Shown here piece by piece: positions 9,628 to 55,269 of a stretch of DNA of 64,000 bases; the stretch's first letter is position 1; each line of letters begins with the position of its first letter. This DNA comes from Agrypnia vestita (taxonomy: Eukaryota; Arthropoda; Insecta; Trichoptera; Phryganeidae), in the NCBI GenBank assembly GCA_016648135.1, contig JADDOH010004264.1, positions 1 to 64,000 of the forward strand. Direction: 5' to 3'. The notes below the pieces were generated by a model. The model did no database searches. It was not told the DNA's origin and saw only the letters and a list, made by a program, of their open reading frames with translations. The translations under genes and the position numbers were made by a program.

Positions 9628-10218
9628 AATAACTCGTAAAATGGCATAAATCGCTCTTTGAAGGCGGATTGCCTAATTCTTAGAAGAAGAGAAGAATCAG
9701 TATTTGAGATTGAGAATATATCATACAAAAATCGGCCCATATTTGGGTTGCAACATGCCACACGGTGGTACTCCAAGCATCAAATTCCAAGATCAACGAT
9801 ATTGCAGATATGTTATCTCCACGCGATACAACGCTTATCTAAAATCCATTCTCCGTTGTTCGTGGAAAGTCGCGATTGAATCTTGATTTGAAGCGTTTAG
9901 AAAGTTTTCTGAATAGATCGTAGAAATGTCTAGATTGGAGATTAGCCATACAATATATATATATCAGTGTTTTCGTGCTTCCAGCGGGTACATGAACATT
10001 CTTTTGATGAACAACGATTCTTAACGTGACGATGCTAAACTCAGATAATATTGTTTATGAATAACATTGCGTTAAACTTCAACCAACTTAAATATTTGAT
10101 ACTAGCTGATATATTGCACACCCAACGTAAGACTATGTTTCATCTTTTCAAAACACGCATTCTGAGATAATGCAGATAAAGTTTTTTGCTCTCGTAATAT
10201 AAATAGTACCGTAAGCAT

Positions 10219-10685
10219 ATTTTGAGTATGTCCAAATTTTTCAGATCAGAACTGGACTTTTGCAACAGGGACATCATTAATCAATCAATGTATATTATAG
10301 ATGTCTCACAGAGACGAAACTGTGTTTTTTTATTACACATATAAAGTATTTTCATTACACAGATAAAGTATATTGCTCACAAAAACTCCAAAATCAATAT
10401 AGATGTCTCATTAGCGACATCTGTGGTCATTTTAGGGGAATGAAAAAGCTTTGGTGCCGGCCGCGCTAAGGATTGTTACAACTCATATATACAACTTCCA
10501 AAAATGAGTAGACATGGTATTCTATCATGGGTGAAAATGGCGAACGTTACATTGTGTAAAGTGATCACTTAAGCCAGCCGTACGATAGGTTGTAAGCCCT
10601 ACGTACACCTAAAAGACTTCTTTACCTAGTTTCCCATAAAAAAATACAGTTTCGTCTCTGTGAGACATCTATAATATACATTGAG
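10219..10685 (-). mobile_element. GATC-palindrome foldback element (copy 1), 12-bp target duplication
   Basis: Direct repeats TACCGTAAGCAT flank it (10207-10218, 10686-10697). The tail end (ATTTTGAGTATGTCC) is on the left and the TATAATATACATT end on the right. Inside are the two facing CACAGAGACGAAACTG modules, a GATGTCTCATTAGCGACATC hairpin and one AAGTGATCACTTAAGCC. No ORF. Mechanism is unknown; see findings. Confidence 0.75.
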
Positions 10686-10840
10686 TACCGTAAGCATTGA
10701 AAATGCTTCATTTGCGTATAAACACGACAAAATGTCATTATTATTTTTACTTTTCTTATAATAAAACACATTTTAAAACAGCACTTTCTTTTTTTCTTCT
10801 TTAATCACACAATTTAAGGAAAAATGTACCAAATGCAAAT

Positions 10841-10940
10841 ACAGGGTATAACAGAGCTAGTCCACAATACTTTACAGGTGGATTCCTGCCTTGATTATGA
10901 GTACAAAATGTTCAAGCAACCACGAACTGTATAATTTAAA
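10841..10940 (+). mobile_element. Single arm of the ACAGG-ended foldback family (copy 3)
   Basis: ACAGGGTATAACAGAGCTAG is followed by GGATTCCTGCCTTGATTATG and AATGTTCAAGCAACCACG, matching one arm of the copy at 9111. The second arm is missing. Confidence 0.6.
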
Positions 10941-11689
10941 TTCAAATTGTCATTTTAAATTTAAAAAAAATAATGGTGACATTTTTTCATAATGTTGTTT
11001 AAAAAAAATTACAGATTCATAAATATTTCAAGGAGATATTACGCAAACAGTGAGGCATAATTTTTTCAAACGGACCTTGAAAATGCTCTTGATATACATA
11101 TATATTGTTTATTAATTATTTTAGTCACGTTAAAAATCAATGAATTATATGCGATTTTTATTTTATCCTATACTTTACTATTTACCCTAAAAAATAACAA
11201 AGCACGCCTTCTATTTTACTTTAAAGATTCTATAATAGAGCAGAAATTACTTTTGTAAGGTGCCTTTTTAATATTAGAAATTTTAAAAAAGAAAAAAAAA
11301 TTCATCATGTCAGTTTTAATTAACTCTAATGCAATTTAAATGGAAATATGAGAAGTAACTGTGTCTGAGAAACGGTAAGAAGACATAACAGAGATCTAGC
11401 CCAGATAAATTCCGGTTATATATGTTAGCTAATAAATGCTTGTACCTATGTGTCATAGTACATGTCTACATACGTTTATATATGACCACTTTCTTATTTT
11501 GTAGATTTTGAATTAATTACAGATGTTGTTATAATTTTGTTTAAATAATAATAACAAAATAATATTGAAAAAACTCCACTTCATCATCTTTTTGGAGAGC
11601 TACAGTGATAAAATTGATGTATTTATTTATAGTTTGATAAACTAGGAAAAAAATGTTATAAATATATTGTATGAATCTGTGTGAAAAAT
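10941..11689. other. AT-rich, nothing recognised
   Basis: No coding, RNA or repeat feature could be supported. Confidence 0.35.
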
Positions 11690-11885
11690 GGTTTGGGTTT
11701 TCCGGGATATTCTGCCGTGTTTCTGCGACTTTTCTGATCGACGTTTTGGATCCCATTGGAGGGTCCATTATCAGGGCAGATCCCGAAAGGATCCGAAACG
11801 TCGGCCAGAAAGGTCAAATATACTGCAGAATATCGCATAATGGTCAAGCCAGAAGATTTCGAAAGGCCGTAAAAACCTAAGAAAA
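11690..11885. mobile_element. Hammerhead-element relic, palindromic arrangement
   Basis: The left part (11690-11775) is the minus-strand hammerhead element in decayed form: box I CTGATAA, box II AAAAC, cores at 11774-11743. The right part (11776-11885) repeats the box II side on the plus strand (GGATCCGAAACGTCGGCC) and ends GGCCGTAAAAACCTAAGAA. The two halves face each other, so this is a snapback or head-to-head double insertion. Neither half has an intact core. Confidence 0.6.
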
Positions 11886-12529
11886 TTATTGTATCTATTT
11901 TTTAAACCAATAATAGCTTACGGTCGCCATGTACAAGAGGCACAGAACTAGAAAGCCTGGAAAATAAATAATAAATATAATTGGCGATCTGCAATGTTAA
12001 GACTAGCGAAGATATTGAAGAACCAATCTACAGGCACTTAAAATTACAAATCGTTCTTTCTTTTTGTTTGTGCTTTTAGGTTTAACGAACATTATCGACC
12101 ATGATCGTTAAAATGGATGGAAAACATAAACTTTTTTATCTCTGCTTGAGTTAAATTATATTTTATATTTACTATTCGAGTATCTAGAGTATCAGAATCT
12201 CTCGTAGACCGGGGAAGTACTCAACTGACTGCATCAAAATAAAGATTTTTTAAATTTATATGGTTAAGGTGAAAAAACACATAATTAATTAAATAGGTAC
12301 TGACAAAAGGAACCGCAGTTACTGTAGGGGGTTGTACTAGGAATATTGAAAGAAGAGGAGAAGATTTTGTAAAAGGAACATTGTGAAACAAATTATTTTA
12401 TTTATTTGTTAACATTAAAATTATTCATTTCATTACCCTTACTGGCGTCAGGGTGAAGTTGTTGAATGGTAAATGAATGAAAAAATATTTACTTTCCATG
12501 ATGTGGCTCGCGAATTAAGAAAATTTTTA

Positions 12530-12665
12530 TTATTGTAACTACACATCGGCCCTGATGATGGACCCTGGAATGGGATCCGAAACTTTCGCCAGAAAGGTCG
12601 TAGAAACGCGGCAGAATATCTCAGAATATTCAAACTAAAGATTATGGACGGCCGTGAAAACCTAA
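12530..12665 (+). mobile_element. Hammerhead-element relic, plus strand
   Basis: CTGATGA (12552-12558), stem II GGACCC/GGGATCC and GAAAC (12579-12583) are intact. The ACGUC cleavage segment has become ACTTTC, so it should not cleave. Downstream GCGGCAGAATATCTCAGAATA and GGCCGTGAAAACCTAAGAA match the other copies. Confidence 0.65.
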
Positions 12666-12814
12666 GAATATTTTTAGCAAGCCTAACCATATTCTTAAAA
12701 TCGAAGGAGTTCCTAAGAATTTAAAAAGAAAAGTCTTTGAACTTACTACCAATTCCATATAAAAAAAAACTAAAATGTACGCATCGATCAACGGGAAGAT
12801 AAATGTTTTAGAAA

Positions 12815-13010
12815 CATAATTAGAATCGAAGAAATCAAACGCCGAAAAAAAATGTATTGCCAAATTGAAATGGCAATGGGTAAGTCAGGTGGCTAGACAA
12901 GGAACTAACAGATGGGCATACAGAATTTTACGAAGGAGAGCATGGGAAAAAAAGAGACACAATAGATGTCAAAAAGCGGGTCGATTTTTGGGAGGGGGCG
13001 AACTCATATT
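12815..13010 (+). pseudogene. LINE relic, C-terminal region
   Basis: Plus strand reads WQWVSQVARQGTNRWAYRIL then RRRAWEKKRHNR. This resembles the 'GHVARxxxxRW...W.P...KR..GRP' C-terminus of an arthropod LINE, about 50 codons. The 32375-32590 relic is of the same type. Confidence 0.55.
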
Positions 13011-13079
13011 TTAAAAAAAATATTTAATGTAATTTTCTAGCAATAGATCGCGACACACAACACCTAGACTTGAAAAATT

Positions 13080-13175
13080 CACATAAATGTATTGTGATCT
13101 CACCATAAATCGAACCCAGAACCTCTGGTATGAAAAAAATCTTTTGTACACTTGACTACGTTAGACGCCCGTATT
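13080..13175 (-). repeat. Possible tRNA-derived SINE fragment
   Basis: On the minus strand, GGTTCTGGGTTCGATTTATGG contains a B-box-like GGTTCGATT. An A-box-like TAACGTAGTCAAGTG lies about 45 bp upstream. A similar arrangement occurs at 50375-50455 (minus). Acceptor pairing is poor. Confidence 0.35.
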
Positions 13176-13768
13176 ACACGTTGTTTTTTTTTTAATTTTA
13201 ACGTCAAGTTGACCGTTACGTAAATAAACAAATACGACCCATCTGACCTTGGAAAAAATTGACAAAATCGATGACTCATGTCGCCAATTGAATCGAAGAA
13301 CTGTGAACCGAAATCAATGTCACCAACACTACTCGACCGTTTCTTGCTCGGCTCAGCTGATTACGTTGTCCGAAGACGTCACAGAAGCGAAAGTACTTTT
13401 CGCAATCGTACGCGGAAAAACACCGAGTTATTTTGCATACTCCATTTTTTAGTAGGAAAATTTCTTGCCATTAACATGTGGAATTTGTAATTCAACAGTA
13501 GCGAAATGGGTCTTACTATTAAAATAATAATTGTACCGACAGCATAGCAACAGGTCAGACTTAACACTAATAGTAATAATTGAGAGGTCGCGAAGTTATA
13601 CGTAAAGTTATACATCAGACACTCTAGTATAGTACAGTTTGGTAGATTCAATTATAAACCACGGCTTAAACAGTTGCATAAGATTCTGACTTACTTTTCA
13701 ATCAAAATTAAACGAAGTGAAACAAATTTAAATAAATATTGTAAAACTATAGCAAATAAAAAATAAAA
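13176..13768. other. No feature recognised
   Basis: Mixed-composition DNA with several overlapping short chance ORFs on both strands, none with a recognisable motif. Confidence 0.3.
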
Positions 13769-14253
13769 AAGTAACCCATAAAAACCAAGTTTTCATTATA
13801 CTCCCTTTCTTTGTAAAATATAATAACAATTAAAGACGAATTAAAACATATAACATAACACTAAACTTACAGTAATTTAATATATTTCTAAAATGACAGA
13901 TGTTTTGAGCTTTGATAAGACACTTCGTGCTTTGTGTAGTAAAGTACCTATTATGTATACCGACGGATTAATTCAAATTTAGCCGCCGTTGCTAGTAATC
14001 AAACTTTTGTAATGATTCCAATTTGAAAAAAATATTAAGAACTTGAAAAATCCAAAATTATACTATAATTATTATTATTTTTTAACGAAAATTTGACAGA
14101 TCTTCTTGATCGTCGCCACGAGTCTGCTTGCAAAGTTTCAGCTCGATTGGATCACGGGAAAAGGGTCAAAAATCGATCCAAAGTTTTTTCGACGGCAAAC
14201 CGGCAAGCAAGCAAGCAGACGCCACGAGTTAATATAAAGGGAGTAAAAAGGAG
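13769..14253 (+). mobile_element. Family B repeat (copy 3, forward, nearly complete)
   Basis: Starts GTAACCCATAAAAACCAAG and ends near GACGCCACGAGTTAATATAA, AAGGGAGTAAAAAG. It contains GCTCGATTGGATCACGGGAA and GCAAGCAAGCAAGCAGACG. An internal segment around CTTTGTGTAGTAAAGTACC is shorter than in copy 1. Confidence 0.7.
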
Positions 14254-14655
14254 CAGTAAAAACCATCCTGATAATCTATTTAAAATGTGTTAAATCTTAC
14301 TGATACAAAAACAATTTCATTCACAAACTGATACTAGAAGAGTATTCGAAGTTTAGATTTAAAAAATAAACACAGTACAGTTATGTGAAACGATAAATAA
14401 CGAATAAAAAATTAGAAATAAAAAATTCTAATATTTTTACGGACCAAACAGTAGTAAACTATTTAGTACATTAGCGGACGAACAAAGAATATTGGAATAT
14501 TTTTAAAGAAATACCACAGTGTACTGTGAAATATGTATAATATATAACATGTACTATAATGTATTCTTACGCACAAACTGCATAAACAGTTTTGAAAGAT
14601 GTCGAAAAGAATATAAATGTAGGTACATATTATCGATTATTATAGATTATTTTGT

Positions 14656-15109
14656 CCATTCAGAATATTTTGAGTTTGTTCAAATCTTTCAGAACAGTGC
14701 TGGATTTATGTCACAGAGACATTATTAATCAATTAGTGTATATTATAGATATCTCACAGAGACGAAACTGTATTAAAATCAATGTAGATTTTCTCATTAG
14801 CGACATCTGTGGGGATTTAGGGGAATGAAAATGGCTTTGTACAGGCCGCATGGAAAAGGCGCTTACAACTCATATATGAAAGCTCTCCACGCAATTTGAA
14901 CATATATACAACTTCCAAAAAATGAATAAGCATGGTATATTCTATCATGGGTGGAAATGGCGAATGTTACAATTGTGTAAAGTGATCACTTAAGCCAACC
15001 ATAAAAAGACAGGTCATAAGTCCTGTGTACACCCAAATGACTTCTATACCTACTTTCCCATAATTAATACAGTTTCGTCTCTGTGAGATATCTATAATAT
15101 ACACTAATT
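14656..15109 (-). mobile_element. GATC-palindrome foldback element (copy 2), 11-bp target duplication
   Basis: GATTATTTTGT occurs at 14645-14655 and 15110-15120. The order matches copy 1: tail end (CAGAATATTTTGAGTTTG) on the left, CACAGAGACGAAACTG, the inner GACATCTGTGGGG block, AAGTGATCACTTAAGCC, then the inverted CAGTTTCGTCTCTGTG. No ORF. Confidence 0.8.
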
Positions 15110-15120
15110 GATTATTTTGT

Positions 15121-15375
15121 ATACAGTACCCGGAGTTTTACGATTGAGACCATGGAACATGAAAAGACGAATAGGCTGGCCTCAGAAAAGGCCTCAAAAA
15201 TGGTATTGTCCACGTTGCAGGTAACAGATGGATAAGAAAAGTCCAAAGAAGAGTGGATTAGAAAACATAAGAAGAGGCCTTCAGCATATTCAGCAGCGGG
15301 GAGATGGCTGAGGAAGAAGAAGATAGAAAACATCACCAGGTTTTTCAATTTCGCCCACTTCAGAAAATTTCGCAC
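15121..15375 (+). pseudogene. Weak LINE relic
   Basis: Plus strand near 15236-15320 gives KVQRRVD then FSIFSSGEMAEEEED and overlapping frames. This loosely resembles LINE C-terminal endings with a run of acidic residues and a GAAGAAGAAGATAG tail. Evidence is thin. Confidence 0.3.
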
Positions 15376-15379
15376 AGGT

Positions 15380-15840
15380 ACTTAACACTTTGCTTGTCTA
15401 TGCTTACTTGTTTCTATCGCTTGTTTATTGTCTTCGCTTCGATGACTTCGCCAAATGTCAAAATAAGACATCTGCGCGCACCGCACCGAAAAATATGCAG
15501 TGCGAATATTTATGCGAAATATCATTTTCTTGTATCTTCCGGTATATCTCGTTGTATTCTATCTATTTCCAGTTGTTTCCAATTTATTCTACGCGTTTTA
15601 AAATAACTTAAACCGTTAGGAAATCCTCGATTATTGTATTAGTTGTAATCATTATTATATTACAATTAGTATTTTTCGTGTGGGATGCTATTGAGTTCAG
15701 TTGGTTTCAGATCTAAGGACATATAAAAGCGCGATAGAATCTTTATTTAGAATCATTGCTTTCAATAATGATCTGAAGTTCATCATAAGAAATTGAAATT
15801 AAATAGAAATAATATACATGTCTGATTAAAGTAATTTTTA
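15380..15840. other. Possible decayed LTR sequence
   Basis: TGTCTATGCTTACTTG, CTATCGCTTGTTTATTGTC and GACTTCGCCAAATGTC resemble the second half of the LTR-like sequence at 42659. Further right is ACATATAAAAGCGCG (TATA-like), about 60 bp from the start of a T-rich stretch. No flanking duplication was found, so the LTR call is tentative. Confidence 0.3.
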
Positions 15841-16392
15841 TTGATCCTTTCCCATATAAAACATTTCTACATCGTTATACGATTAGAAAATTAATAAAAT
15901 CTGGGTATAATACACCATCAAAGCGAGGATTTTCATAACAGTAATCTACCCAATATATCTATCGATCTGAGACATAGACACTGAGGTAGAAAAAAGGGAG
16001 GAATATTGATGCATTGGAGTTGTGGTGCAAATATTATGCACAGCTCACAGAGCAAACTCCATTTTACAAGGAATAAATGTTGAGCAATGTCTATCTGTCT
16101 GTTGACTCTGGTGTTGTAGCTATGAGTGAAGAAGAAAAAGAAGGAGTGGAATATACAAGCCACGCGCATTATACAGCGACACGTGTAGCATGTTGCGTGA
16201 CACACATTAATTACAATGAACAATAATACGTTTCTCTGACTGGCTGGTTCTATGGAATGCCTGGCACTTCTAGTTACTTTTAGATGCACGCATTGTATGA
16301 GATTTTAGATACCGTATCCGAGAACTCTTTAATAAATTTGTTAGATTAATTAATATAGTAACTATCTGAACATTCGTGTAAAATCACGGGAC
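15841..16392. other. Unassigned sequence with a 118-codon minus-strand frame
   Basis: The minus frame 16289-15933 is open but has a biased, low-information composition and no motif I recognise. It may be chance. Nothing else is visible. Confidence 0.3.
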
Positions 16393-16780
16393 ATAAATAA
16401 ATTAATTAATTAAGGAAAATAAAAAATAATCTTAATCTAAACTTTAACCCTTTTTACATTAAACAATTATTCTACACATATTTACACTTGGACTTATGAC
16501 TCACTCAACTTACCACTAACATTGCACGTAATACTTTGTAGATACATAATTCCTATCTTATGAAAATAAATATTACTGACGAATTAAAAAAAAATATTAT
16601 AATTGTGTTCTATAACGCCACTCTGGGACAGGCGTAGCCTAGTAGAGTGGCGTAATCCACAAATTTAACAACAACAAAAAAATGTGTAATTTATCTTATA
16701 TTCTTATTATTAAATTAGTATTAAGTACCTGTATTTGTAAACAAGGATTTTTTTTTTTGAAATAAATAAAAAAAAATAAA
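16393..16780 (+). mobile_element. LINE 3'-UTR-type repeat with conserved hairpin (copy 1)
   Basis: Matches 36715-37085 closely over about 350 bp, including CACATATTTACACTTGGAC and GTTCTATAACGCCACTCTGG. It ends in an A-rich AAATAAATAAAAAAAAATAA tail. Hairpin: CGCCACTCT (16616-16624) pairs perfectly with AGAGTGGCG (16644-16652), with an inner AGGC/GCCT stem. No coding sequence precedes it, so it is truncated within the 3' UTR or is a SINE built from it. Confidence 0.7.
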
Positions 16781-16904
16781 AATAGTAATTGCAGGATTTT
16801 GAAGCTGAATATTCATGTATAGAAAACCATTTGTTTTTTTAAATGGACTTTACTAGCTTAAATCTAAAACTAATTATAATAATAATATTAAAATGTCAAT
16901 TGTT

Positions 16905-16995
16905 GGAGGCGGCGACACTTGAACCCGTGCTGTTTGAGTGTCACAATCTAATTATCTGAAGTTGTGATTCCAGTAATTTACGGACGCTATAGACC
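16905..16995 (-). repeat. Possible tRNA-like sequence
   Basis: The minus strand contains GCACGGGTTCAAGTGTCGCC, a B-box-like GGTTCAAG, with TCACAACTTCAGATAATTAG upstream. A tRNA-derived fragment is possible. The stem pairings are not good enough for a gene. Confidence 0.25.
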
Positions 16996-17098: not shown

Positions 17099-17646
17099 AT
17101 ATACGGGTTATTTGGAAAACATTAATAACCTCGCAGAACGATACTCCTTCCTTGATAATGAGTCGAAAATTTTCAAGCTATTATGACCTAATATCAATAG
17201 TTAAGGAGATATGCGATATCAAAGTTTGCATTTTTTTTTCAATATTTCTGACTTATCTTTTGTAAAACGTTGGACTATCATTACAGTAACTTATATCGAG
17301 TATGAAAATTTCATTTCCTTTAATACAAGTCAAACAAAAAATAAAAACCTTCGAATTCCATTTGGAAAACATTCCAATTAGAATTTTTTCAGGGTTTTAA
17401 TCTTTTTATTCAACTTGTATTGAAACGAATGAATTTTTCGTAATTGATATAACTTACTGTAATGATAGTCCAACGTTTTACAAAAGATAAGTCAGAAATA
17501 TTGAAAAAAAAATGCAAACTTTGATGTCGCATATCTCTATAACTATGGATATTAGGTCATGAGAGCTTGAATATTTTCGACTCATAATCAAGGCAGGAGT
17601 ATAGTCCTGCGAGGTTATTAATGTTTTACAAATAACCCTGTATACG
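17099..17646. mobile_element. Foldback element, ACAGG-ended family (copy 4)
   Basis: Left end TATACGGGTTATTTGGAAAA; right end CAAATAACCCTGTATA. Arms of about 250 bp share TTAAGGAGATATGCGATATC, ATTTCTGACTTATCTTTTG and AACTTATATCGAGTATG with the copies at 9111 and 25829. The terminus differs from copy 2 after the first seven bases, defining a subfamily with 25829-26382. Confidence 0.75.
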
Positions 17647-21614: not shown

Positions 21615-21626
21615 TAAAGTTAAAGT

Positions 21627-22226
21627 GTATATTATAGATATTTCACAGAGACGAAACTGTATTAATTATGGGAAAGTAGGTATAGAAGTCATTTGGGTGT
21701 AACAGGACTTATGACCTGTCTTTTGGTAGGCTTAAGTGATCACTTTACACAATTGTAACATTCGCCATTTCCACCCATGATAGAATATTCCACACATAAT
21801 AAAAAGGATATTGCTCCATAAATTCCGTAAAATCAATTGTAGATTTTCTCATTAGCGACATCTGTGGGGATTTAGGGGAATGAAAATGGCTTTGTACAGG
21901 CCACATGGAATAGGCGCTTACAACTCATATATGAAAGCTTCACGCAATTTGAACATATATACAACTTCCAAAAAATGAATAAGCATGGTATATTCTATCA
22001 TGGGTGGAAATGGCGAATGTTACAATTGTGTAAAGTGATCACTTAAGCCTACCAAAAGACAGGTCATAAGTCCTGTTACACCCAAATGACTTCTATACCT
22101 ACTTTCCCATAATTAATACAGTTTCGTCTCTGTGAGATATCTATAATATACACTAATTGATTAATAATGTCTCTGTGACATAAATCCAGCACTGTTCTGA
22201 AAGATTTGAACAAACTCAAAATATTC
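21627..22226 (+). mobile_element. GATC-palindrome foldback element (copy 3, long form), 12-bp target duplication
   Basis: TAAAGTTAAAGT flanks it at 21615-21626 and 22227-22238. It begins GTATATTATAGAT, keeps both long arms (each with TAAGTGATCACTT) and ends with the ~85-bp tail ...ACAAACTCAAAATATTC. The arms span about 160 bp each and are nearly identical. The middle holds GACATCTGTGGGGATTTAGG. No ORF. Confidence 0.85.
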
Positions 22227-22579
22227 TAAAGTTAAAGTACCTAATATGTTTTAGAACTCTTCTATCAACGCATCACTGTGTTCCATTCAACCTATCATTA
22301 TCAGATTAAAAAACCTATGTTTAAATTAAACTTTCTTTGCAATTAATCTGCATACCTCGTCAAATCTACTGCAGATTCATCATTTGCGTATCATATAAAT
22401 TATGAGAGAAAATAGAAATTAAATTTTATGACAGAATGCATGTATCATTTTAGAAATTAACTGTGAAAGACCTTTCCAATGCAATTACATGACTGAAAAA
22501 AATAATTAACATATTTTTTTTGTAGTGTTTGAAGCTTTGAGATCATTTTTGGGGTATAAAAGCAAAGAAAGTAATCTTT

Positions 22580-23799: not shown

Positions 23800-24165
23800 A
23801 ATTAAGATATATTTCACAGAGATGAAGGGATTTATATGAGAAAGTGTGCATGAAAAAATTTTTTGGCATTTACAGAGTTTACGACCTGTCTTTGGCTGGC
23901 TTAAGTGATCACTTTACACGATGTAACGTTGACGATCCCACCCATGTATTACCACACTATCAAGTTAGGAAAGTTTTAATCACGATATTTACGGACCTCG
24001 CTTATTTTACTCAATACAACTACGCAATGGCTATTTATCAAATATAAATAGCTTCTTCGTCTCTGTGAGACATCTATAATATATCTTGATATATTATAGA
24101 TGTCTCTGGGGACAAAATCCAGTAATTGCGTTCTTAAAAATTTGAATATACCTTTACAAAATTTT
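23800..24165 (+). mobile_element. GATC-palindrome foldback element, diverged copy
   Basis: Contains CACAGAGATGAAGGG, GGCTTAAGTGATCACTTTAC, TTCGTCTCTGTGAGACATC and the tail start GTCTCTGGGGACAAAATCC. It is more diverged than the other copies. AAAATTTTA occurs outside both ends but is too short and AT-rich to count as a duplication. Confidence 0.6.
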
Positions 24166-28660: not shown

Positions 28661-28680
28661 TAATACGATATTTAATTAAT

Positions 28681-29111
28681 AAAGATATATTACATGTCTC
28701 ATAGAGACAAAATTATATTTTTTATAGTAGGAAAATAGGTACGGAAGTCTTTTGGTGTTCATAGGGCTTACGACCTATCGTACGGCTGGCTTAAGTGATC
28801 ACTTTACATAATGCAACGTTCACAATTTCCACCCATGATATAATACCAAATTTATAAAACTTTTTGATGTTGTATATATTTAAGTTTTAAACCCGTTTCA
28901 CATGTGTGTTGTATTTTTATTAGCGCGACCGGAATCCGAAGTTTTTTCATTCCCCTTAATTAAACACAGATGTCACTAATGAGATATCTATTTTTGATTG
29001 GAGTTTTTTTCATCTCTATGTGACATTTATATTATATCTCGATTAATGATGTCCGTGGGATAAAATCCAGTGCAGTGTTCTGAAAAATTTGGACAGACTC
29101 AAGATATTCTG
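28681..29111 (+). mobile_element. GATC-palindrome foldback element (copy 4), 12-bp target duplication
   Basis: TATTTAATTAAT flanks at 28669-28680 and 29112-29123. The order is CATGTCTCATAGAGACAAAAT, GGCTTAAGTGATCACTTTAC, an inner GCGCGACCGGAATCC block, TTTTTCATTCCCCTTAA, then the tail TGATGTCCGTGGGATAAAAT to CTCAAGATATTCTG. It belongs to a subfamily also seen at 31525-31850. Confidence 0.8.
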
Positions 29112-29124
29112 TATTTAATTAATT

Positions 29125-31520: not shown

Positions 31521-31524
31521 TAGA

Positions 31525-31850
31525 TATATATTATAGGCGTCTCATAGTGACAAAATTATATTTTTTGTGGGAAAGGTAAGTCTTTGGGCGTTCGTAGGGC
31601 TTAGGACATATCATAGGGCTTGCTTAAAAAGTGATCACTTTACACAATGCAATGTTCACCATTTCCACCCATGATAGAATACCACATCTTTCAAAATTTT
31701 TGGAAATTGTACATACATATTTAAATTAAACCCGTTTCATATGTATGTTGTAATTATCTATAGCGCGACCGGCATCCAAAGCTTTTTTCATTCCCCTTAA
31801 AAATCACAGATGCCACTAATGAAATATCTATTTTTGATTGGAATTTTTTG
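31525..31850 (+). mobile_element. GATC-palindrome foldback element, truncated copy
   Basis: Contains CTCATAGTGACAAAATTATA, AAGTGATCACTTTACACAAT, CGCGACCGGCATCCAAAGC and TTTTTCATTCCCCTTAA. It matches 28681-29000 and lacks the tail. Confidence 0.65.
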
Positions 31851-31910
31851 AAAAGCAAATCTTTTATACGTTATTTATAGCGCACTTTTGATCTTGCATC
31901 TGTTTGTGAA

Positions 31911-32266
31911 TAAGCAAAAGTTTATTTTTGAAATTAAATTATTTAATTAAGGAAGAGAAAATATCCGCTGATGATGCTAAAAATGATTTTATATTCGATT
32001 TACTTTGCCAATTATCATTTTTCCGAGAAGACGTATTTTAAACTTTCGTTTTTGGTACAAGGCAAAATTATCAAGAAAACACTATTAAACGATAAGCAAA
32101 AGTTTATTTTTTAAATTAAATTATTTAATTAAGGAAGAGAAAATAACCCCTAATGATGCTAAAAATGATTTTATATTCAATTTACTTTGCCAATTATCAT
32201 TTTTCCGAGATGATATATTTTAAACTTTCGTTTTTGGTACAAGGCAAGATTATCAAGAAAACACTT
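31911..32266. repeat. Two-copy tandem repeat, period 182 bp
   Basis: TAAGCAAAAGTTTATTTTT, GGAAGAGAAAATA, AATGATGCTAAAAATGATTT and TTTGGTACAAGGCAA recur in order 182 bp apart. The two units differ at a handful of positions. Confidence 0.9.
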
Positions 32267-41822: not shown

Positions 41823-42240
41823 ATATTTCACATAGAAACTAATTTGAAATATATAAAACTAGCGAATCCGACAGACATTGTCCTGCCCGAATATTTCACA
41901 TAGAAACTAATTTGAAATATATAAATCTAATTTGAAATATATAAAACTAGCGAATCCGACAGACATTGTCCTGCCCGAATATTTCACATAGAAACTAATT
42001 TGAAATATATAAATCTAATTTGAAATATATAAAACTAGCGAATCCGACAGACAGTGTCCTGCCCGAACGTTGGCTTTTCGTTTGGGTGGTATAAATCCTA
42101 GAACTCGACTGCGGCGCCACCTACCGGATCCAGTTGTGAATCTAGACCATCCAGGGACCCACTCGAACCCACACAATAAATTTTATTAAAATTGGCTCAG
42201 CCGTTTAGGAGTTCAGTGACATACACATACACAGAAGAAT
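41823..42240 (+). mobile_element. Retroelement 3' end with an 88-bp tandem repeat
   Basis: Three units at 41823-41890 (68 bp), 41891-41978 (88 bp) and 41979-42066 (88 bp). Each ends AGCGAATCCGACAGACATTG then TCCTGCCCGA. The longer units carry an internal duplication of AATTTGAAATATATAAA. Downstream, AATTGGCTCAGCCGTTTAGG and AGTTCAGTGACATACACATA are the type of ending shared by RTE-like LINEs and SINEs in insects. Confidence 0.65.
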
Positions 42241-47725: not shown

Positions 47726-47729
47726 CAGA

Positions 47730-49280
47730 TAAATATTTGATTTTGATTTTTTTTTCCCAAAATATTTGATTATTTTTTTAAGTCATGCTTTAATTTCAAT
47801 TTTTAAGTCGTACACGCACCTGTTGTATGAATATGAGAGGCTTCCTATGAAACGGTCTCAATATTACGCGCGTAGACAGCGCATGTACTAACTTAATGGA
47901 GACTAAAATATAATTTAATTTATATTATATTATAATTTAATTATACAAAATTTTTGATAAAATTAAATAAAATTGATAGGTAAACGATTCGGGATCCTTC
48001 CTCCCAGAATGTTCGATGGAATGTTTTTGCCGTAATTCGAAAACAGCTAATTATAATTCCACTAAGTCAGTCTCTCTATTTAGTTCAATTTGTTTACAAA
48101 GGTTCTCAAATGTAAATTAATTTCCACCGATGAACACGAGAAATTTCTTCGGTGTTTAAATAAATAATGTAAAATAAAAATTACATTTTTTCTCTTCCCC
48201 GAATTTATTAAAAAACTTGACTTTAGTGGTGTTGGTAAAAGGCCGACGGTATGTTTATTAAATGGGTAGGTGCCCAGTAAAATTTATTATGGAAATTTTG
48301 GTGAAATTTTAAAATATACAATTTACCTTACCTTTTATTTTCAGCTTCACCGGCATAGAAATCAATACCTACTAGGCGCCTCCAAAAGATTGTTTATTTC
48401 AAAAAAGATTTGTAAGGCGTCGAACATCGATCCGTTTACCTTCGACACACAATGTACTAGCATTCTACCGCCTTGAGACATGTATTACACATATTTTTGT
48501 ACGAGTAGTTATCTTCTTAAGAGGCCCCATTACACGATTTTCGTATTTGCTCTCGATTTGTTAAATTTAACGTAAACTTATTAAATCATTTTGCAAAATC
48601 CATAGCTAAACAGACTTTTAATCAATTTTATTTTGATAGATCCATTTACTTTTCAAGCATTTTCTAAAAAAATATGAACAAATATATTGTTATAACATCA
48701 AAAAAATTATAAGCCCGAAACACTATTTTACTTTTCATGCAATAGTTATCTTTGGTACACTTAATCTCTATATTTTCAAATAAAGACCATATATTTTATT
48801 CGCAAATTGATTGTAAAAAACTTGAAAAAGAAGTGGTGCTATTCAGACATTAATATTTTTTGACAAGTTGTTAAATATATCGTTTTAAAAAAGACAAAAA
48901 TTAAGCGTTCTGTTTCCTATATTGCAGTATCCATAAAACCATTAATACATCGATTATACTAATTAAATTTTACATGCGTACTAAGAAAATTTCTCTGTCA
49001 TTAATATATAAATATTCAAAAAATTATACCTCATACTCAAGAATTCTAATTAATTAAATCGTATAGTCTGTTAAAAGATCATTATTCTTTCAAATCAGAC
49101 TTCGGTTGGACTCGGGCGCGCTCGGCTCCGCTCGGGGCCGGCGTATTGGAGGTGACATTTTATTTATTCAACGAAATGCGCGCGCATCACGTGACATAAG
49201 TTATTTCCTACAAATATGTTTAAACTTTATTACCGCCATCTGGCGAAATCCTCCCGATCGTTTTTAATCTCGGTATCTGC
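47730..49280. other. No gene recognised
   Basis: AT-rich throughout except 49100-49142 (GGCGCGCTCGGCTCCGCTCG), a short GC-rich patch with no gene context. Confidence 0.3.
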
Positions 49281-49284
49281 GAAG

Positions 49285-49405
49285 CTCGACTGATGTCGCC
49301 CTCTACGCTGAATGACGTTCGCCTCTTTGCTGACGTTGAACAGGAATCTGTAGTCTGCGGATATCTCTTGAGTTGTCAGTTTTTGCGACTGGTTCGTTTC
49401 ACTTT
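49285..49405 (+). repeat. Dispersed repeat (copy 2), matches 43805-43940
   Basis: GCTGAATGACGTTCGCCTC, AATCTGTAGTCTGCGGATAT and TTTTGCGACTGGTTCGTTTC align in order with the other copy. Confidence 0.55.
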
Positions 49406-49929
49406 GTACAGGATAACTAGCAAATACATAAGAAGCAAAGACTCACTATTATAGTCAAACAAAAAAAGACGAAAACAAAACATCGTGTTCTCTAATACTT
49501 CACTACTTTTTTGACATATTCTCAGTAATGGCCGCAAATAACTCCCCCTGCATTCCATGCTCTGTACTTCTACAGTTATAATACAATTATTCGATCCAAA
49601 ACTGTATTTAGTTAAATTATCATCAAAAGTTAAGAAGAATAGCATATTCTCCGCAAAAGTAGTGTTACGGCAAAAAATTCAATTAAATATCCTAAAGGAA
49701 TCCCTTCGAGAAGAATTTTGTACCGTACGTCATACTAAAGTGCTTCGAATCGTTCCCGTTCAATCTATTAGCGTCATCGAGAAAAGTCTGGAAACGCCTA
49801 GAAGGAAAAGTGTTTTTTTATTTTTTTTTAATTTACGCTTCAACAGGCCATGAGCCCCAATTACAGAAGCGAAACACGTCACAAAAAATCAGGCATGAGT
49901 AAATCACATAGATCTATGATCTGAAATAC

Positions 49930-50380
49930 CGGACCAACTGAAACTGTATACCATATAACACAACAATTAAACATCGAAAGCATTACAAAAATCGAAACAC
50001 TTAAAATCATTCACAGACTAGCAATTGGCGAAATACAAGACGAAGACATAAAATTACACAAAATACATGAAAAACATCAACACAACACTAGAATGGCTCA
50101 GAACTATCACATAACACAAGCCAAAACAAAAACAGGACAATTCCGACTAATTTGCAACGGATTAAAACTATACAATGACCTGCCACAACAGACCAAACAA
50201 CTGACCACTGACAAATTCAAAACAGATGTGACAAAAATGTTAAAACTCGGCCAACTATTAAAAAATGACTTTGTATCTAAATGATATTATTATTATTTCT
50301 TATATTGAATCATTTAAAAGTGTTATCTATAAACCTTTTAGGTTTCCATTATATTTTAAATAAATAAAAAAAAAAAATTG
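49930..50380 (+). pseudogene. 5'-truncated LINE 3' end with A-rich tail
   Basis: One plus frame reads QQLNIESITKIETLKIIHRL, HKIHEKHQHNTRMAQNYHIT, FRLICNGLKLYNDLP and stops at 50284. HNTR...LYNDLP is the C-terminal block of CR1/Jockey-like LINEs. After the stop there is a short hairpin (AAACC/GGTTT near 50331-50346) and an AAATAAATAAAAAAAA tail ending near 50378. Confidence 0.75.
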
Positions 50381-50460
50381 TGACCTCACCGGAAATCGAA
50401 ATCGGAATCCACGGTGTGAGAAGCCATTGAGGGCTCCCGTCTTACACTTTTAGAGGTATT
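50380..50460 (-). repeat. Possible tRNA-like fragment
   Basis: Minus strand includes GACGGGAGCCCTCAATGGC and CGATTTCGATTTCCGGTGAG, a degraded A-box/B-box arrangement similar to 13080-13175. Confidence 0.3.
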
Positions 50461-51320
50461 TGATTAACTTAGGTAAGCGAGCTTTGGATGGCTGCAAGTA
50501 TGTAAGACTCGGCGGGTGGCCGAGCGAGCAGTTTTCTCCTTCGCTATTCTGGACCGCAATAAATAAAGTGAAGATAGCCAACACGTTAGCCAACGACCGT
50601 TGAACGAATAGGGCACAAAAAGTAGTAGTTCATTTTTTAAAATTCAAGTTACTTTAATAAACAGGGAGTTTCGTTCAGTCCCCATCACCGCAAAGACAAA
50701 GCCAAACAGGTAATAGTATTCAGGTAGGTATTATATTCTCATTTATTATTTCACAAAGATCTTTTCTTAACTGGATATTATCTCGGCTAAAATTTGAAAT
50801 GTGAGTGATGTAATTTTTAAATAATGGTTATCAGTCACGCCTCCATATTAATGGTATTGTCTCTACGATAATGGTCGTAATGAATATTATTTATCGCTGG
50901 TGATATTTGGGAGGTCCGATTGAGAAACAAACCTTGATCTAAATTATCTTCACTACAAATATGCCAATGGTAACCATGTAATTAAAAAAATATTATAAAA
51001 CCGACCAAAAAAAATCTACCTAAATAAATAGATTTTCCTTTAACACTGCGGTATAAGTAACCTTTGACTTACTCGTAAAATTGAAGATGTCTCACTACGA
51101 TGTAAGGAAAAATAAATAAATAGTATTTTTTTATTAAACTATTTATTCATAAACTATTAAACTCCTCCTTCCCGTCGCAAGTAAGGGTGATAAAATTTAT
51201 AATTTTGAATGTTTAAAAATCAAAAGAAATTTGAACCTGGTTGAATTTGAACTTTAAATTTGCTTAACAATATTTAAGTATTGAAATAAATTCTATATTT
51301 TATACGAACCAAATGGATGT
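50461..51320. other. No gene recognised
   Basis: Unassigned DNA without a supportable feature. Confidence 0.3.
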
Positions 51321-51329
51321 GTAGAAACA

Positions 51330-51440
51330 ATTCTCGACGTTTCGCTGGATTCCTTGGAGTACGTCATTGACCTCCGCCGAGAGGGCACTCTCCTGAAGAC
51401 GCTGTGACATGACTACAGTGAGATGTCGAAAATCGTATTT
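51330..51440. repeat. Facing hammerhead-like motifs, decayed
   Basis: Minus strand at 51343-51339 has GAAAC followed by GTCGAGAA. Plus strand at 51393 has CTGAAGA (a valid CUGANGA) followed by CTGT/ACAG pairing and a changed box II, GAGA (51420-51423), then TGTC. The two face each other as in a palindromic Penelope-like terminus. Neither core is complete. Confidence 0.35.
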
Positions 51441-51544
51441 CTCCACATGCATAGATTTGTATAAAATAACGGGTTTATTTCAGTACTTGATATTACTAGG
51501 CACATTAATACCCGAGTTCAAATTTATTTTAATTTCTTAACTAC

Positions 51545-51735
51545 GACTGAAATTATGGAAATTGCACAGAGACGAAACTATTTATATGAGAAATATGTAT
51601 GGAAGTATTTTTTTAAGGATGGCCCAGGGCTTCCGACCTATATGAGCTGGCTTAAGTGATTACTTGATACAATGCAACCACCACAATTCACCATTCCATC
51701 GTAAAAACATTTCCACATTATCAAATTTTTGAAAA
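51545..51735 (+). mobile_element. GATC-palindrome foldback element, partial copy
   Basis: GCACAGAGACGAAACTATTT, GGCTTAAGTGATTACTTGAT and CACAATTCACCATTCC match one arm. The palindrome has one change (GATTAC). Confidence 0.6.
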
Positions 51736-51739
51736 TTCT

Positions 51740-52740
51740 ACGAATGCTCAAAATCTGAAAATCTCTCGTTTATTAATATGTATAAATTTAAATAAATAAA
51801 TAAAAAAATAAATTTTTAAAAATTTAAAAAATTGAACGGACTATTTTCTCAGAAAAACATGCGTACTTGTAGTTTGGACTTACGTGGACGTGAAAATAGA
51901 ACTGATAAAGGATGATAAAAAGTTTTGGAGTGACATGGAACAAAAATTAAAAAAATTGTTTAAAAATTAAAAAAAGTGTTTTACTTTGATTGATAATTGG
52001 CAGAAATAATTGACTCCAGATTAGATAGGCAAATGGAAAAAAAGGAACCTGATTACATTCTCAAAGCGATCAAAAAACGGAGATTGAAAAAATTACTAAG
52101 CGGAAGATTGATGAAAATAAAAGTTTAACAAATGCGAAACGTAAAAAGCCAACGTGAAATTAATTAATAAGCGGCCTCAAAATTGCTTTATTTATTCCAT
52201 GATGCTCCAAACTACTTTTATTATTTAAAGGATCCTAAATATTAAAGTAAGTTTTAAGTCCCGGGCAATACAATAGATTTATTTGGTAATTTGTCAGAAA
52301 AATCCTCCTTATTAATTGCAGCTATCAGCTAATTGACTTCGTTTAGGAAATAATTTTTTTTCGAAATTTTAAATTTGGTCTTATATTAAAAGTTTGTTAG
52401 CCTAACTAAACCACTCCTTAAAATGTTTGGGACCAACGGAATAGTAAATATATTAGTTTTCACACAAATAATTATTGTACCCAACACAAAACTCGCATAT
52501 TCCAAATACTTGGGTACTTTTCGCAAACAGGCGTCCGGGTTAACTAAACTTTATGTGTGCGTGACGACACATACATACAAAAATCGCTCCAAATACCTAA
52601 AGACCCACCCTCTTGATACGTTTTTGGTTTCGTTAAATATTTTTTTATTACAAGATGTTCCGGCCTAATTGGATCTAATTAGAACTCGCTTCCTGCCGAC
52701 TTCCGGTACAGCAGGAATTGAAATGTAGAGTCTAGAGGTC
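51740..52740. other. No gene recognised
   Basis: AT-rich DNA. The 81-codon plus frame (52423-52668) has no recognisable motif. Confidence 0.3.
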
Positions 52741-52749
52741 TTGCAGAGA

Positions 52750-53045
52750 GCCCCACCACAATTCCACAGCGAGGCCGCCCAATAATGAGGTGGCGGATGC
52801 TGTGAAGAGAGATGTCCTTAGATTGCAAGATCAGCCCGAATTTATCTCAAGGCAGGGATGCAGAAAGTTTTTGTGGTTAGCCTTTGAGCTAGGTGGTGAA
52901 AATTTGAATATGGAAAACGTTGTCATCATTCATAGAGGATCCTTGTCTTCTCCTACTATTTATATTTTTTTGTAATGCCGTCTAATGTAATGTAATATTA
53001 ATGATTCTGTGGAATCTCGTATACACAAATAAAGGATCATCATCA
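52750..53045 (+). pseudogene. LINE relic, C-terminal end
   Basis: Plus strand shows RGRPIMRW, then after a frame change DAVKRDVLRLQDQP. The GRPxxRW...D pattern is the LINE C-terminal type seen above. A tail of AAATAAAGGATCATCATCAT ends it. Confidence 0.45.
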
Positions 53046-53149
53046 TCTTCTTCCTCTTGTCCAAAAGATTCGACAAGGTACTTCCATGATTCCCTGTCTT
53101 GCTACTTCTACTGCTTCTGCTCGAGTCAACCTGTCCACAAAGATATAAA

Positions 53150-53395
53150 GGATATTACTTTACCATAAAAAAATTAGAGACATCTGTATTTGATGAGGGG
53201 AATGAAACAAATTTGGACGCCGTAGGCGCTAGTGATAATTACAACACACATGTGAAACGGGTTGTAAAACTTAAATATATATAATTTTCAAATATTTAAT
53301 AGATGTAGTGTTCAATCATTGGTGGAAATGGTTAACGTCACATTGTGTAAAGTGATCACTTAAGCCAGCTGTACGATGGGTCGTAAGCCCTGTGA
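53150..53395 (-). mobile_element. GATC-palindrome foldback element, partial copy
   Basis: GACATCTGTATTTGATGAGG, CATGTGAAACGGGTTG, AAGTGATCACTTAAGCCAGC and GGTCGTAAGCCCTGTGAG match the family in reverse order relative to 28681. Confidence 0.6.
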
Positions 53396-53399
53396 GTAA

Positions 53400-53910
53400 G
53401 CAACGATGAGTGGTGGCAGGTTTTTGGAATGGGCGTGTGTGGTTCGGCAGGGCCGTCACAAGAAATTAATTTGTATTACTTCTCTATCTCTTGAAGATTT
53501 TTGTCTTGACATTGACTGTTCATCTCTGTCCTGGGCTTCCCTTCGATCCTATTAATGGGGGTTTTGTGCGTGTTACTACATTTCCCTCTGCTCTTGCTAC
53601 ATTTTTAGTCCACCACAGCTTCCTCGCTTTCACTTTCCTCAGGATATCTGGAATTTTATACCTTCCCCAATGTTTCAAATTCAATAGCCTTCTCCATTAC
53701 CCGGTACAGGTATCTCGTGTTGTGCCATAAATTTTGGGCATTATTTTATTTTCGAGGACCTGTAACCTATTTTCATGCTCTAAAGCGAGAGACCAAATTT
53801 CACAACCATTTAAGAGAGCCGCTTTATGAGCAATAGCTCCCATATCGGCCCTATGCTTTCGCCACCCAATTCGGTATTTTTTAATACAAATATAGTGATT
53901 ATCGTCCACA
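53400..53910 (-). pseudogene. LINE relic, polymerase C-terminal region
   Basis: Minus strand: YRIGWRKHRADMGAIAHKAA, LLNGCEIWSLALEHENRLQ and VLENKIMPKIYG, the LLYGCExW...ENRLxxxExKIxRxIYG motif of arthropod LINEs. It continues in other frames with TKPPLIGSKGSPGQR near 53530. Frameshifted and dead. Confidence 0.75.
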
Positions 53911-54009
53911 CGCCACTTAAACTAATACCAATGCAAGCGGCGCGAGGAGGCGTCCACACAAAACTGATTCACTGTCTCTTAAGCGCAAGAATGAGGAGGG
54001 GGAAATTAT

Positions 54010-54290
54010 AGTTTATTTGTAGTAGGATATCAATAATATTTGTACATGGAAAAAAATATAATTGTAAATTTATTTCTCGAATGTTCTGGCATAATCTCGT
54101 GGATTCTATCGATTTCTAGTTGTTTCCAAATTATTCCAGATCTATGTATAGTCACGTAAATACTCAAGTACATGCAGCTCTGCTTGATTTTTCACAATAA
54201 ATTCAATATAAATAGACAATATTTTTCCTTGTGACAAAATGTTAGTTATTTTAGTATACAAGTATAACCACTTACTCAGATTTTTAGTCT
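54010..54290. other. No feature recognised
   Basis: AT-rich DNA. GATTTCTAGTTGTTTCCA near 54113 is also found at 15565 (ATTTCCAGTTGTTTCCA), suggesting a shared old repeat. Confidence 0.3.
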
Positions 54291-54293
54291 ACT

Positions 54294-54490
54294 GTTTTTG
54301 AGACGTACTCATCTCTTCGTCAGGACAATCACTACACCAGCACATAAATAACACTACACACCACATCCATAGTACTGTTAACACGTGTGCTAATTTGACT
54401 GAAAGCTAACATGCACTAAGGTGCCTACCAAAAGAGGTCAAGATTCTTAGGGGTGGAAAGAGTGAGAAGGGTGAGGTCTAAAGGGGTAAG
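54294..54490 (-). repeat. Hammerhead-like relic (ACCGGU class) with foldback-arm relic
   Basis: Minus strand core 54323-54294: box I CTGACGA intact, stem II GAGAT/GTCTC, box II changed to AAAAC, then AGTA, GAC able to pair with GUC. The next ~100 bp (CACTACACCAGCACATAAAT, CACTACACACCACATCCATA) match 37155-37200, and TGCACTAAG then matches the foldback arm at 37257. Confidence 0.5.
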
Positions 54491-54649
54491 CAGTCTTCGT
54501 AACACATATATCAATCTTGTAATTTTTCTTCGCCTACTTCTTCCTAAGTTGTTTCGATATCGGTAAGAATATACACATTTTATAATAGACTGTTTCTCTC
54601 ACAACCAAATTGGTGATCCTGATTCTACCGATGCGGCAACATTATCAAT

Positions 54650-55151
54650 TCAGAATATTTTGAGTTTGTTCAAATCTTTCAGAACAGTGCTGGATTTATG
54701 TCACAGAGACATTATTAATCAATTAATGTATATTATAGATATCTCACAGAGACGAAACTGTATTTATTATGGGAAAGTAGGTATAGAAGTCATTTGGGTG
54801 TACATAGGACTTATGACCTATCTTTTTATGGTTGGCTTAAGTGATCACTTTACACAATTGTAACATTCGCCATTTCCACCCATTGTATATATGTTCAAAT
54901 TGAGTGGAAAGCTTTCACATATGAGTTGTAAGCGCCTTTCCATTTTGAACATATATACAACTTCCAAAAAATGAATAAGCATGGTATATTCTATCATGGG
55001 TGGAAATGGCGAATGTTACAATTGTGTAAAGTGATCACTTAAGCCAACCATAAGATAGGTCATAAGTCCTATGTACACCCAAATGACTTCTATACCTACT
55101 TTCCCATAATAAATACAGTTTCGTCTCTGTGAGATATCTATAATATACATT
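54650..55151 (-). mobile_element. GATC-palindrome foldback element (copy 5, long form), 12-bp target duplication
   Basis: AACATTATCAAT flanks at 54638-54649 and 55152-55163. The tail end (TCAGAATATTTTGAGTTTG) is on the left. The two arms (54723-54883 and 54999-55151) are nearly identical inverse copies, each with AAGTGATCACTT. The loop has its own inverted GTATATATGTTCAAAT. The best copy for defining the family. Confidence 0.85.
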
Positions 55152-55269
55152 AACATTATCAATCCTCCAAGTTATCCTTTGAACAAGTATTAATAGTTAT
55201 GAGAAAACGTAGGAATAGTAATATATGCATTAGAGCACTGCAGGTAGAAAGGCTTGTTCTTGAATCCTT

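Follow-up and report, generated by a model that had tools for sequence, protein, structure and literature searches.

How a hairpin-shaped repeat comes to lie repeatedly between direct repeats is the question raised by a 64,000-nt stretch of contig JADDOH010004264.1 of Agrypnia vestita (GCA_016648135.1), to which we refer as the window. A sequence-only reading had placed five such copies here between direct repeats of 12, 11, 12, 12 and 12 bp, and we recovered all five at the same positions. The last four duplications are exact as claimed, whereas the maximal repeat around the first copy (e1) is 14 bp, which makes 12 bp a lower bound. When random point pairs were drawn within the window using 25-nt zones, one of 3000 gave a direct repeat of at least 11 nt and none of 3000 gave one of at least 12 nt. 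Also confirmed in the window copies were the AAGTGATCACTT-bearing arms, a tail of ~80 bp on one side only and the raggedness of the tail ends. Long inverted arms are present, but they are not true terminal inverted repeats; they are separately truncated head-to-head copies whose outer ends differ. All copies are cut from one unit of 538 bp, M, taken as tandem or circular, and the features below are given in its coordinates, with A and B denoting the two sites at which outer ends fall.

10205..10218, no strand: e1 target duplication, left, AGTACCGTAAGCAT, maximal exact direct repeat, 14 bp
10214..10326, minus: e1 piece on the B side, ending outward at site B and carrying the tail; M about 69 back to 495
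10350..10680, plus: e1 piece on the A side, ending outward at site A; M about 160 to 532
10684..10697, no strand: e1 target duplication, right, 14 bp
14645..14655, no strand: e2 target duplication, left, GATTATTTTGT, 11 bp
14658..14776, minus: e2 B-side piece, M 73 back to 493
14775..15114, plus: e2 A-side piece, M 204 to 538, then 5
15110..15120, no strand: e2 target duplication, right, 11 bp
21615..21626, no strand: e3 target duplication, left, TAAAGTTAAAGT, 12 bp
21624..21792, minus: e3 A-side piece, M 534 back to 362
21792..22230, plus: e3 B-side piece, M 167 to 538, then 1 to 72
22227..22238, no strand: e3 target duplication, right, 12 bp
28669..28680, no strand: e4 target duplication, left, TATTTAATTAAT, 12 bp
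28672..28984, minus: e4 piece on the A side, of a diverged subfamily and aligned in two stretches (M 6 back to 331; 260 back to 221)
29008..29115, plus: e4 B-side piece with tail, M about 502 to 74
29112..29123, no strand: e4 target duplication, right, 12 bp
54638..54649, no strand: e5 target duplication, left, AACATTATCAAT, 12 bp
54646..54943, minus: e5 B-side piece, M 75 back to 279
54941..55153, plus: e5 A-side piece, M 321 to 536
55152..55163, no strand: e5 target duplication, right, 12 bp

The window also contains six older relatives.

23800..24157, no strand: e8, arm and tail; imperfect duplication, 9 nt exact, AAAATTTTA
31524..31849, minus: e6, tail not recognised
51552..51678, minus: e10, arm piece
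53173..53395, plus: e7
62697..62877, plus: e9, arm and diverged tail start
63874..63974, plus: e11, arm piece

Most copies across the genome join head-to-head pieces of one unit

Genome-wide, we tabulated 63 distinct copies, which are a sample of a larger family. L001 (the place of e2) and L046 (the place of L014) were removed beforehand, second elements inside L033 and L049 were left out of the counts, L076 was omitted as an apparent second copy of the e1 locus, and L077-L088 are not in the table. The unit runs in the order arm-tail-X-body-arm, and some pieces exceed one unit, in the tandem or partial-tandem manner of Penelope-like elements (PLEs) with pseudo-LTRs; L032, for example, is a single unbroken 670-nt piece that runs from M 406 round to 537. 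Uninterrupted pieces longer than one unit indicate that the template was multimeric or circular, and the ragged ends of the copies follow from their being pieces cut from such a unit. The X segment is 100% identical in all 40 scored copies, which were the best of 751 first-look candidates.

In 51 of the 63 copies, outward-facing M pieces are arranged head to head and terminate at A on one side and at B on the opposite one, which places the tail at a single end, as in PLEs; none is A/A and none is B/B (A/B assignment and duplication were set by hand for L025). At the target edge, the outer ends wobble across M 531-543 at site A and across about M 67-75 at site B, which lies 72 bp beyond A, and the one-sided tail is the A-B interval of M. 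This clustering at two sites 72 bp apart is known from genomic insertions, not from the RNA reaction. Among the other 12 copies, ten have a 5'-truncated end on one side (including L036, which starts at a contig end), L022 combines B with position 48, and L048 uses neither site.

Target duplications and junctions point to priming on RNA

The proposal of copying through RNA withstood a search among the 63 copies for exact symmetrical ends, or for duplications that are scattered in length or absent. Target duplications measure 11-15 bp in 51 of the 63 (11 bp, n = 11; 12 bp, n = 22; 13 bp, n = 11; 14 bp, n = 6; 15 bp, n = 1). This count excludes L045, where the match is element sequence, and L026, which sits in a repeat array; the other 12 copies also include L032 (10 nt), L043 (8 nt, then mismatches) and several in which no duplication was found. 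Matches of at least 11 nt arose in 5 of 1240 controls with shifted boundaries at the same loci and in 18 of 1260 pairings of flanks from different copies.

We evaluated junctions in the 47 A/B copies with a duplication of at least 10 nt, without L026, of which 44 B junctions and 46 A junctions were readable. The target end matches the element by at least 1 nt at 35 of the 44 B junctions (re-paired control, about 33%) and at 32 of the 46 A junctions (control, about 36%), as expected of priming on RNA. Extra or mismatched bases occur at 9/46 A junctions and 8/44 B junctions. Across the 47 copies the target edges are similar on both strands, with AA[C/A] before and NTTT after, and AT content is 80% in the duplications versus 67% in the 500-nt flanks.

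M is non-coding and shares its layout with PLEs of the same genome

No ORF of at least 120 aa was found in the window copies, and hence no single ORF with RT and GIY-YIG, so we file M as a non-coding passenger or derivative of PLEs and not as a PLE proper. The sequence-only reading had called for a longer autonomous relative sharing both ends, and none emerged from 13 GIY-YIG loci and 13 e1-subfamily loci. Fourteen stretches around the 13 GIY-YIG loci, which represent part of the genome's PLEs, yielded no coding PLE that shares M; the best similarity to M was a weak 65% match over 91 nt (L067), and e9 had a few short weak matches there. The 13 e1-subfamily loci contain no frame longer than 151 aa, and no coding element that shares M was found among them. 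From an ATG just after A, the e1 tail reads MSLLQKSSSDLKNLDILKI and the e8 tail reads MSLGTKSSNCVLKNLNIPLQNF, and the corresponding frame is interrupted in M and e4. As read from sequence, the e1 and e8 frames are suggestive, though not proof, of former coding, and M probably descends from a PLE that retained the pseudo-LTR and ORF start and lost the rest.

Using Rfam with relaxed thresholds, we found no hammerhead in the window, the e4 tail, M as represented in L014, or the e4 and e1 arms, and four PLE loci of this genome were equally without a hammerhead hit. The predicted folding includes a stem that begins at the ATG and by eye can be likened to hammerhead stem II, and RNAalifold on nine diverged arms gave just a 4-pair hairpin. 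A Twister-P5 match in M (L014; 18.9 bits, E 0.18, gathering score 37.6) had no counterpart in e4 or e1, and we set it aside. One 20-base pattern had no exact match in viral contigs, and e2 had no match in phages. Retrozymes, like M in our reading, rely on RT supplied in trans. Animal non-LTR retrozymes resemble M in being small non-coding repeated units copied via RNA, but they are defined by type I hammerheads (PMC7761336), which were not detected in M or the window.

Five GIY-YIG loci (L064, L066, L068, L070 and L073), chosen for their long internal inverted repeats, have 12-16 bp duplications and head-to-head arms, and their two ends lie immediately upstream of an ATG and 35-42 nt downstream of that ATG. 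The layout was read at these five of the 13 loci, the others being L062 and L065, with shorter inverted repeats, and six loci without such repeats. By sequence, the PLE loci form two families, one of L064/L074, L068 and L070 and the other of L066 and L073. L073 encodes RVT_1 and GIY-YIG in one 559-aa frame, and because the frame opening at its ATG stops ahead of the RT frame, we infer the link from ATG to RT; L064 contains RT-like sequence, as judged by eye. These families share with M a comparable duplication length (11-15 bp in 51 of 63 M copies), the head-to-head layout, site A just before the ATG, site B downstream and a tail at one end. Unlike M, they carry GIY-YIG and place B 35-42 nt past the ATG, compared with about 60-65 nt in M, and they lack strong sequence similarity to it. 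Taken together, we consider it highly probable that the hairpin repeats are a non-coding retroelement mobilised by PLE proteins of the same genome through two-sided target-primed reverse transcription. Of the two versions of an RNA intermediate in the earlier proposal, LINE-like and Penelope-like, the genome copies support specifically the Penelope-like one: they have two fixed priming zones and tandem units, their head-to-head pieces are 5'-truncated, the junctions on either side show microhomology, and five PLE loci that carry GIY-YIG bear the same signature.

Alternative origins of the hairpin

A variant of this conclusion, in which the same PLE-type elements acquire the inverted arm by self-priming or template switching of one cDNA and not by priming at both cut ends, shares our main claim, and its odds fall within those of the best explanation; we consider it unlikely. 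Palindromic junctions have been used to argue for self-priming in Adineta Penelopes (PMC3846280). Among the 37 two-piece copies of M, the inner coordinates differ by at most 5 nt in three (L047, L060 and L019), by at most 30 nt in 11 and by at most 60 nt in 15, and such close coordinates could come from a fold-back copy, but they are more than 60 nt apart in the remaining 22. Furthermore, a fold-back copy should not end once more at a fixed site, whereas the second outer end falls at the other priming zone and usually has microhomology with the target.

The head-to-head layout could also arise in a SINE moved by a LINE. L1-like 5' inversion, or twin priming, makes head-to-head copies with identical junction logic, and several copies fit twin priming on one RNA, such as L018, in which the A-side piece ends at M 61 and the B-side piece spans 68 to 43; a LINE-like coding stretch was also seen by eye in the window. 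We nevertheless regard this origin, and with it the LINE-like version of the earlier proposal, as very unlikely, since there are two alternative ends, neither of them A-rich, in place of a constant 3' end, and no simple-repeat tail. In addition, the second priming site is fixed at B and not scattered, the A/B two-ended layout is the rule rather than a minority pattern, M is a tandem or circular unit, and the five PLE loci agree in layout and duplication length.

Long inverted arms with long duplications would also suit a foldback or Mutator-like cut-and-paste DNA transposon (MITE) that duplicates 9-12 bp and has long terminal inverted repeats; in Tm1, a foldback family of Mutator, the inverted repeats are reported as composite and most duplications as 8-10 bp long (PMC3169594). 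Such an origin is hardly credible for M, in which the outer ends differ (A versus B) and wobble where exact matching inverted ends would be expected, arms are truncated at differing places and junctions show microhomology. Moreover, no transposase-like frame was seen in the copies or in 13 e1-type loci (the latter judged by length only), and GIY-YIG elements of the genome bear the same signature. Finally, hairpins and haplotype contigs can be misassembled and L076 presents the e1 locus a second time, its duplication included, but an assembly or segmental-duplication artefact is almost certainly not the explanation, as target duplications differ among copies at 51 of 63 and are spread over many contigs.

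A proposed two-sided model of PLE insertion

Under two-sided target-primed reverse transcription, the PLE endonuclease would cut the target strands 11-12 nt apart, and reverse transcription of the element RNA would then start from each freed 3' overhang, at A on one side and at B on the opposite side. Both cDNAs would end at variable points and join inside, with gaps filled, to yield a hairpin-like insert with a one-sided tail, and the ragged outer ends would represent priming wobble. The sequence-only reading had described a perfect-hairpin element; the hairpin shape is there, but it looks like a by-product of two-sided insertion and not a conserved terminal structure.

Two known systems are closest to this arrangement. 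The purified Poseidon PLE of Anolis carolinensis, PAc, cleaves and extends both target strands, and it begins synthesis at two neighbouring internal RNA sites, one at either border of the tail, near the pseudo-LTR/ORF-start junction (PMC11167929). M resembles it in AT-rich targets and in a template that may be tandem, and the two sites at which its genomic ends cluster around the tail would correspond to these start sites, with both target strands again cut and extended. PAc, however, codes for RT and endonuclease and has a hammerhead (PMC11167929), whereas M is non-coding with no recognised hammerhead. PAc starts are also reported as not homologous to the cut DNA and without a difference between strands (PMC11167929), while M junctions usually match by 1-5 nt and A is paired with B in 51 of 63 insertions. 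The Penelopes of Adineta vaga are described with an inverted pseudo-LTR beside a direct one, an optional one-sided tail, short duplications, and unrelated sequences carried in trans between pseudo-LTRs (PMC3846280). They differ from M in their few, coding copies, in duplications of 8-10 bp or none, in a 31-bp tail and in self-priming being the explanation favoured there (PMC3846280).

How PLEs complete insertion is unsettled, and the Anolis study describes the steps after the first strand as yet to be validated (PMC11167929). The M family offers a natural experiment, with many near-identical copies that can be read end to end, legible duplications and junctions, and a record of the RNA site used at each side of every cut. 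These many young copies suggest that the Penelope machinery begins copying at both sides of the cut, using a different RNA site at each. Whether PLE-type integration is normally two-sided, with both 3' overhangs of one staggered break priming on RNA at A and B, we regard as evenly balanced. If so, reverse transcription would produce both flanks of the insert, without any need for a separate step of second-strand priming, the strict pairing of A with B would imply an enzyme, probably dimeric, that offers the two RNA sites to the two DNA ends in an asymmetric way, and small non-coding units with just A and B could multiply and come to resemble foldback transposons. PLE passengers, as this family shows, can take the form of foldback repeats between long duplications, and some repeats annotated as MITEs may therefore merit re-examination.

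Foldback copies in the window and in the genome

The five foldback copies of the window (e1–e5, within approximately 10205–55163) lie where the sequence-only reading had placed them and are flanked by perfect direct repeats of 14, 11, 12, 12 and 12 bp, for which the chance rate in the window is very low. No ORF of at least 120 aa was found within these five copies. The window also contains older relatives (e6–e11).

Older foldback relatives in the window
23800–24157, older foldback relative
31524–31849, older foldback relative
51552–51678, older foldback relative
53173–53395, older foldback relative
62697–62877, older foldback relative
63874–63974, older foldback relative

The host genome (1.32 Gb) was searched with e2 and with X, a 130-bp segment next to the tail of the element, which yielded 60 loci (L numbers), 2 of them repeating places already in the set. 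Forty matches were scored per search, of 278 first-look candidates for e2 and 751 for X, so the family exceeds the copies read and the sample is biased toward top-scoring copies. Each of the 40 X matches that were scored, the best of the 751 candidates, was 100% identical, and many matches to the body segment were 98–100% identical, which indicates that the foldback copies are young. Locus L076 carries the same element and the same 14-bp duplication as e1, with ~500 bp of additional mid-sequence, and probably represents the alternative haplotype or a duplication of the e1 locus.

Other repeats were also observed in the window. At 3886–4372, head-to-head inverted arms of 179 nt contain a pair of tRNA-like sequences (Rfam tRNA; 38.4 and 35.7 bits) and form a further hairpin-like repeat, in whose flanks no duplication of at least 9 nt was found. 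An inverted repeat of 236 nt (17105–17638; 90% complementary) resembles a DNA-transposon MITE of a different kind; its outer ends are similar to TATACGGGTTATTTG / CAAATAACCCTGTATA. The minus strand of 56457–61619 holds long frames with reverse transcriptase (RT), RNase H and zinc-knuckle-like sequence, which by eye represent a LINE-like element. Tandem repeats with periods of 182 and 88 bp occupy 31910–32265 and 41832–42067.

Outer ends of the foldback copies

In the younger copies, X directly follows the tail and is followed by body and arm, and the segment order arm-tail-X-body-arm corresponds to a 538-bp unit, M, under a tandem or circular reading. Unbroken pieces sometimes exceed one unit of M (e.g., 670 nt in copy L032), and comparison with doubled M revealed that most insertions are split into head-to-head pieces. 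The outer ends fall into two zones, A and B, which at the edge of the duplication correspond to M 531–543 (46 junctions) and M 67–75 (44 junctions), respectively; the alignments, in which matching target bases are included, run to M 532–551 for A and 68–89 for B. One A end and one B end were found in 51 of 63 distinct copies, a count that includes L025, which was assigned by hand, and A/A and B/B combinations were each found in 0. The remaining copies comprise 10 with one truncated end (1 of these at a contig end), L022 with B and position 48, and L048 with neither zone. The tail is seen on one side only because it is the A-B interval.

The inner ends are variable: among 37 two-piece copies, the A-side piece stops at M 200–206, a run of A, in 5 and at M 41–76 in 10. 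Recurrent inner ends at the M 201–206 run of A were observed in e2, L002, L003, L006, L009, L017 and L022, and would represent either a reverse-transcriptase stop or a favored joining site. Stops near B, at M 58–76, after a full or near-full turn are frequent (L018, L033, L034, L042, L043, L053, L057 and L059) and would represent either the RNA 5' end or collision with a second primed strand.

Target duplications and junctions

Duplications of 11–15 bp, with a mode of 12, were found in 51 of 63 copies, compared to 5/1240 and 18/1260 in controls. Both strands show similar edges of the duplicated target, with AA[C/A] before it and NTTT after it, and the AT content of the target is 80%, versus 67% in the flanks, as would be expected from one type of cut per strand. 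Element and target share 1–5 bases at 35 of the 44 readable B junctions, versus ~33% after re-pairing, and at 32 of 46 A junctions, versus ~36%. These matches suggest that the ends are ragged because priming wobbles by a few bases. One copy, L026, sits within a short array of TTAGG, the insect-type telomeric repeat, a hint that the genome is that of an insect.

Penelope-like elements of the same genome

GIY-YIG domains are abundant in the genome (at least 63 matches, with 150 scored of 4793 first-look candidates), and internal inverted repeats are present in 7 of the 13 distinct GIY-YIG loci fetched, with L074 and L064 counted once as the same locus. Five loci of Penelope-like elements (PLEs), selected for long inverted repeats, were resolved (L064, L066, L068, L070 and L073; L062 and L065 were left out) and represent two families by sequence. 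All five have 12–16 bp duplications and head-to-head arms, with one end just 5' of an ATG and the other 35–42 nt past it, and thus carry the same signature as the foldback family. In M, an ATG directly follows A, at the start of a predicted stem. L073 features direct pseudo-LTRs, an inverted pseudo-LTR, a 13-bp duplication, and RT and GIY-YIG domains that share one 559-aa frame. The frame opened by its ATG terminates ahead of the RT frame, which indicates that this copy is interrupted; its ATG is a putative ORF start. The head-to-head arms of L064, L068 and L070 are 172–566 bp long (L070: 99.6% over 566 bp), and these loci are partly palindromic PLE copies. A coding partner sharing M was not found among the PLE and e1-type loci compared, and no hammerhead was recognized in M or in the four PLE loci of this genome that were scanned.

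A published study describes a purified Anolis PLE that cleaves and extends both strands, starting at two adjacent internal RNA sites whose interval is the 'tail' of genomic copies; it found no homology between start site and cut DNA and no difference between strands (PMC11167929). Other reports describe inverted pseudo-LTRs with an optional 31-bp tail, duplications of 8–10 bp that only some copies have, and transport of unrelated sequences between pseudo-LTRs (PMC3846280), as well as PLEs with second copies arranged in tandem, pseudo-LTRs in inverted orientation and short extensions at the 3' end (PMC8969392). Titles and abstract openings among the matches listed mention no non-autonomous or miniature Penelope family, which does not prove absence.

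Class and proposed mechanism

We consider it very likely that the foldback family is a 'non-coding PLE passenger or derivative'; because it codes for nothing, it is not filed as a PLE proper. In the mechanism that we infer, a staggered cut would leave two 3' overhangs of 11–12 nt, which would anneal to M RNA by a few bases, one near A and one near B. Both annealed overhangs would be extended into cDNAs, which would stop at variable points and then be joined. Several copies (L018, L043 and L059), with an A-side piece that ends near B and a short B-side piece, look like products of twin priming on one RNA with B upstream of A; other copies need a longer template. Fold-back copying, which would generate the inverted arm by a different route, seems improbable as the alternative and shares the PLE assignment, so its likelihood is already contained in that given to the assignment. 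In 11 of 37 copies, the two pieces have inner coordinates at most 30 nt apart, a spacing that such copying could give, but in 22 the distance exceeds 60 nt, which suggests that fold-back copying could explain a minority and not most copies. For priming near A and B on M RNA, the strict A/B pairing is a new point and argues that the two sites are used in an ordered or asymmetric way.
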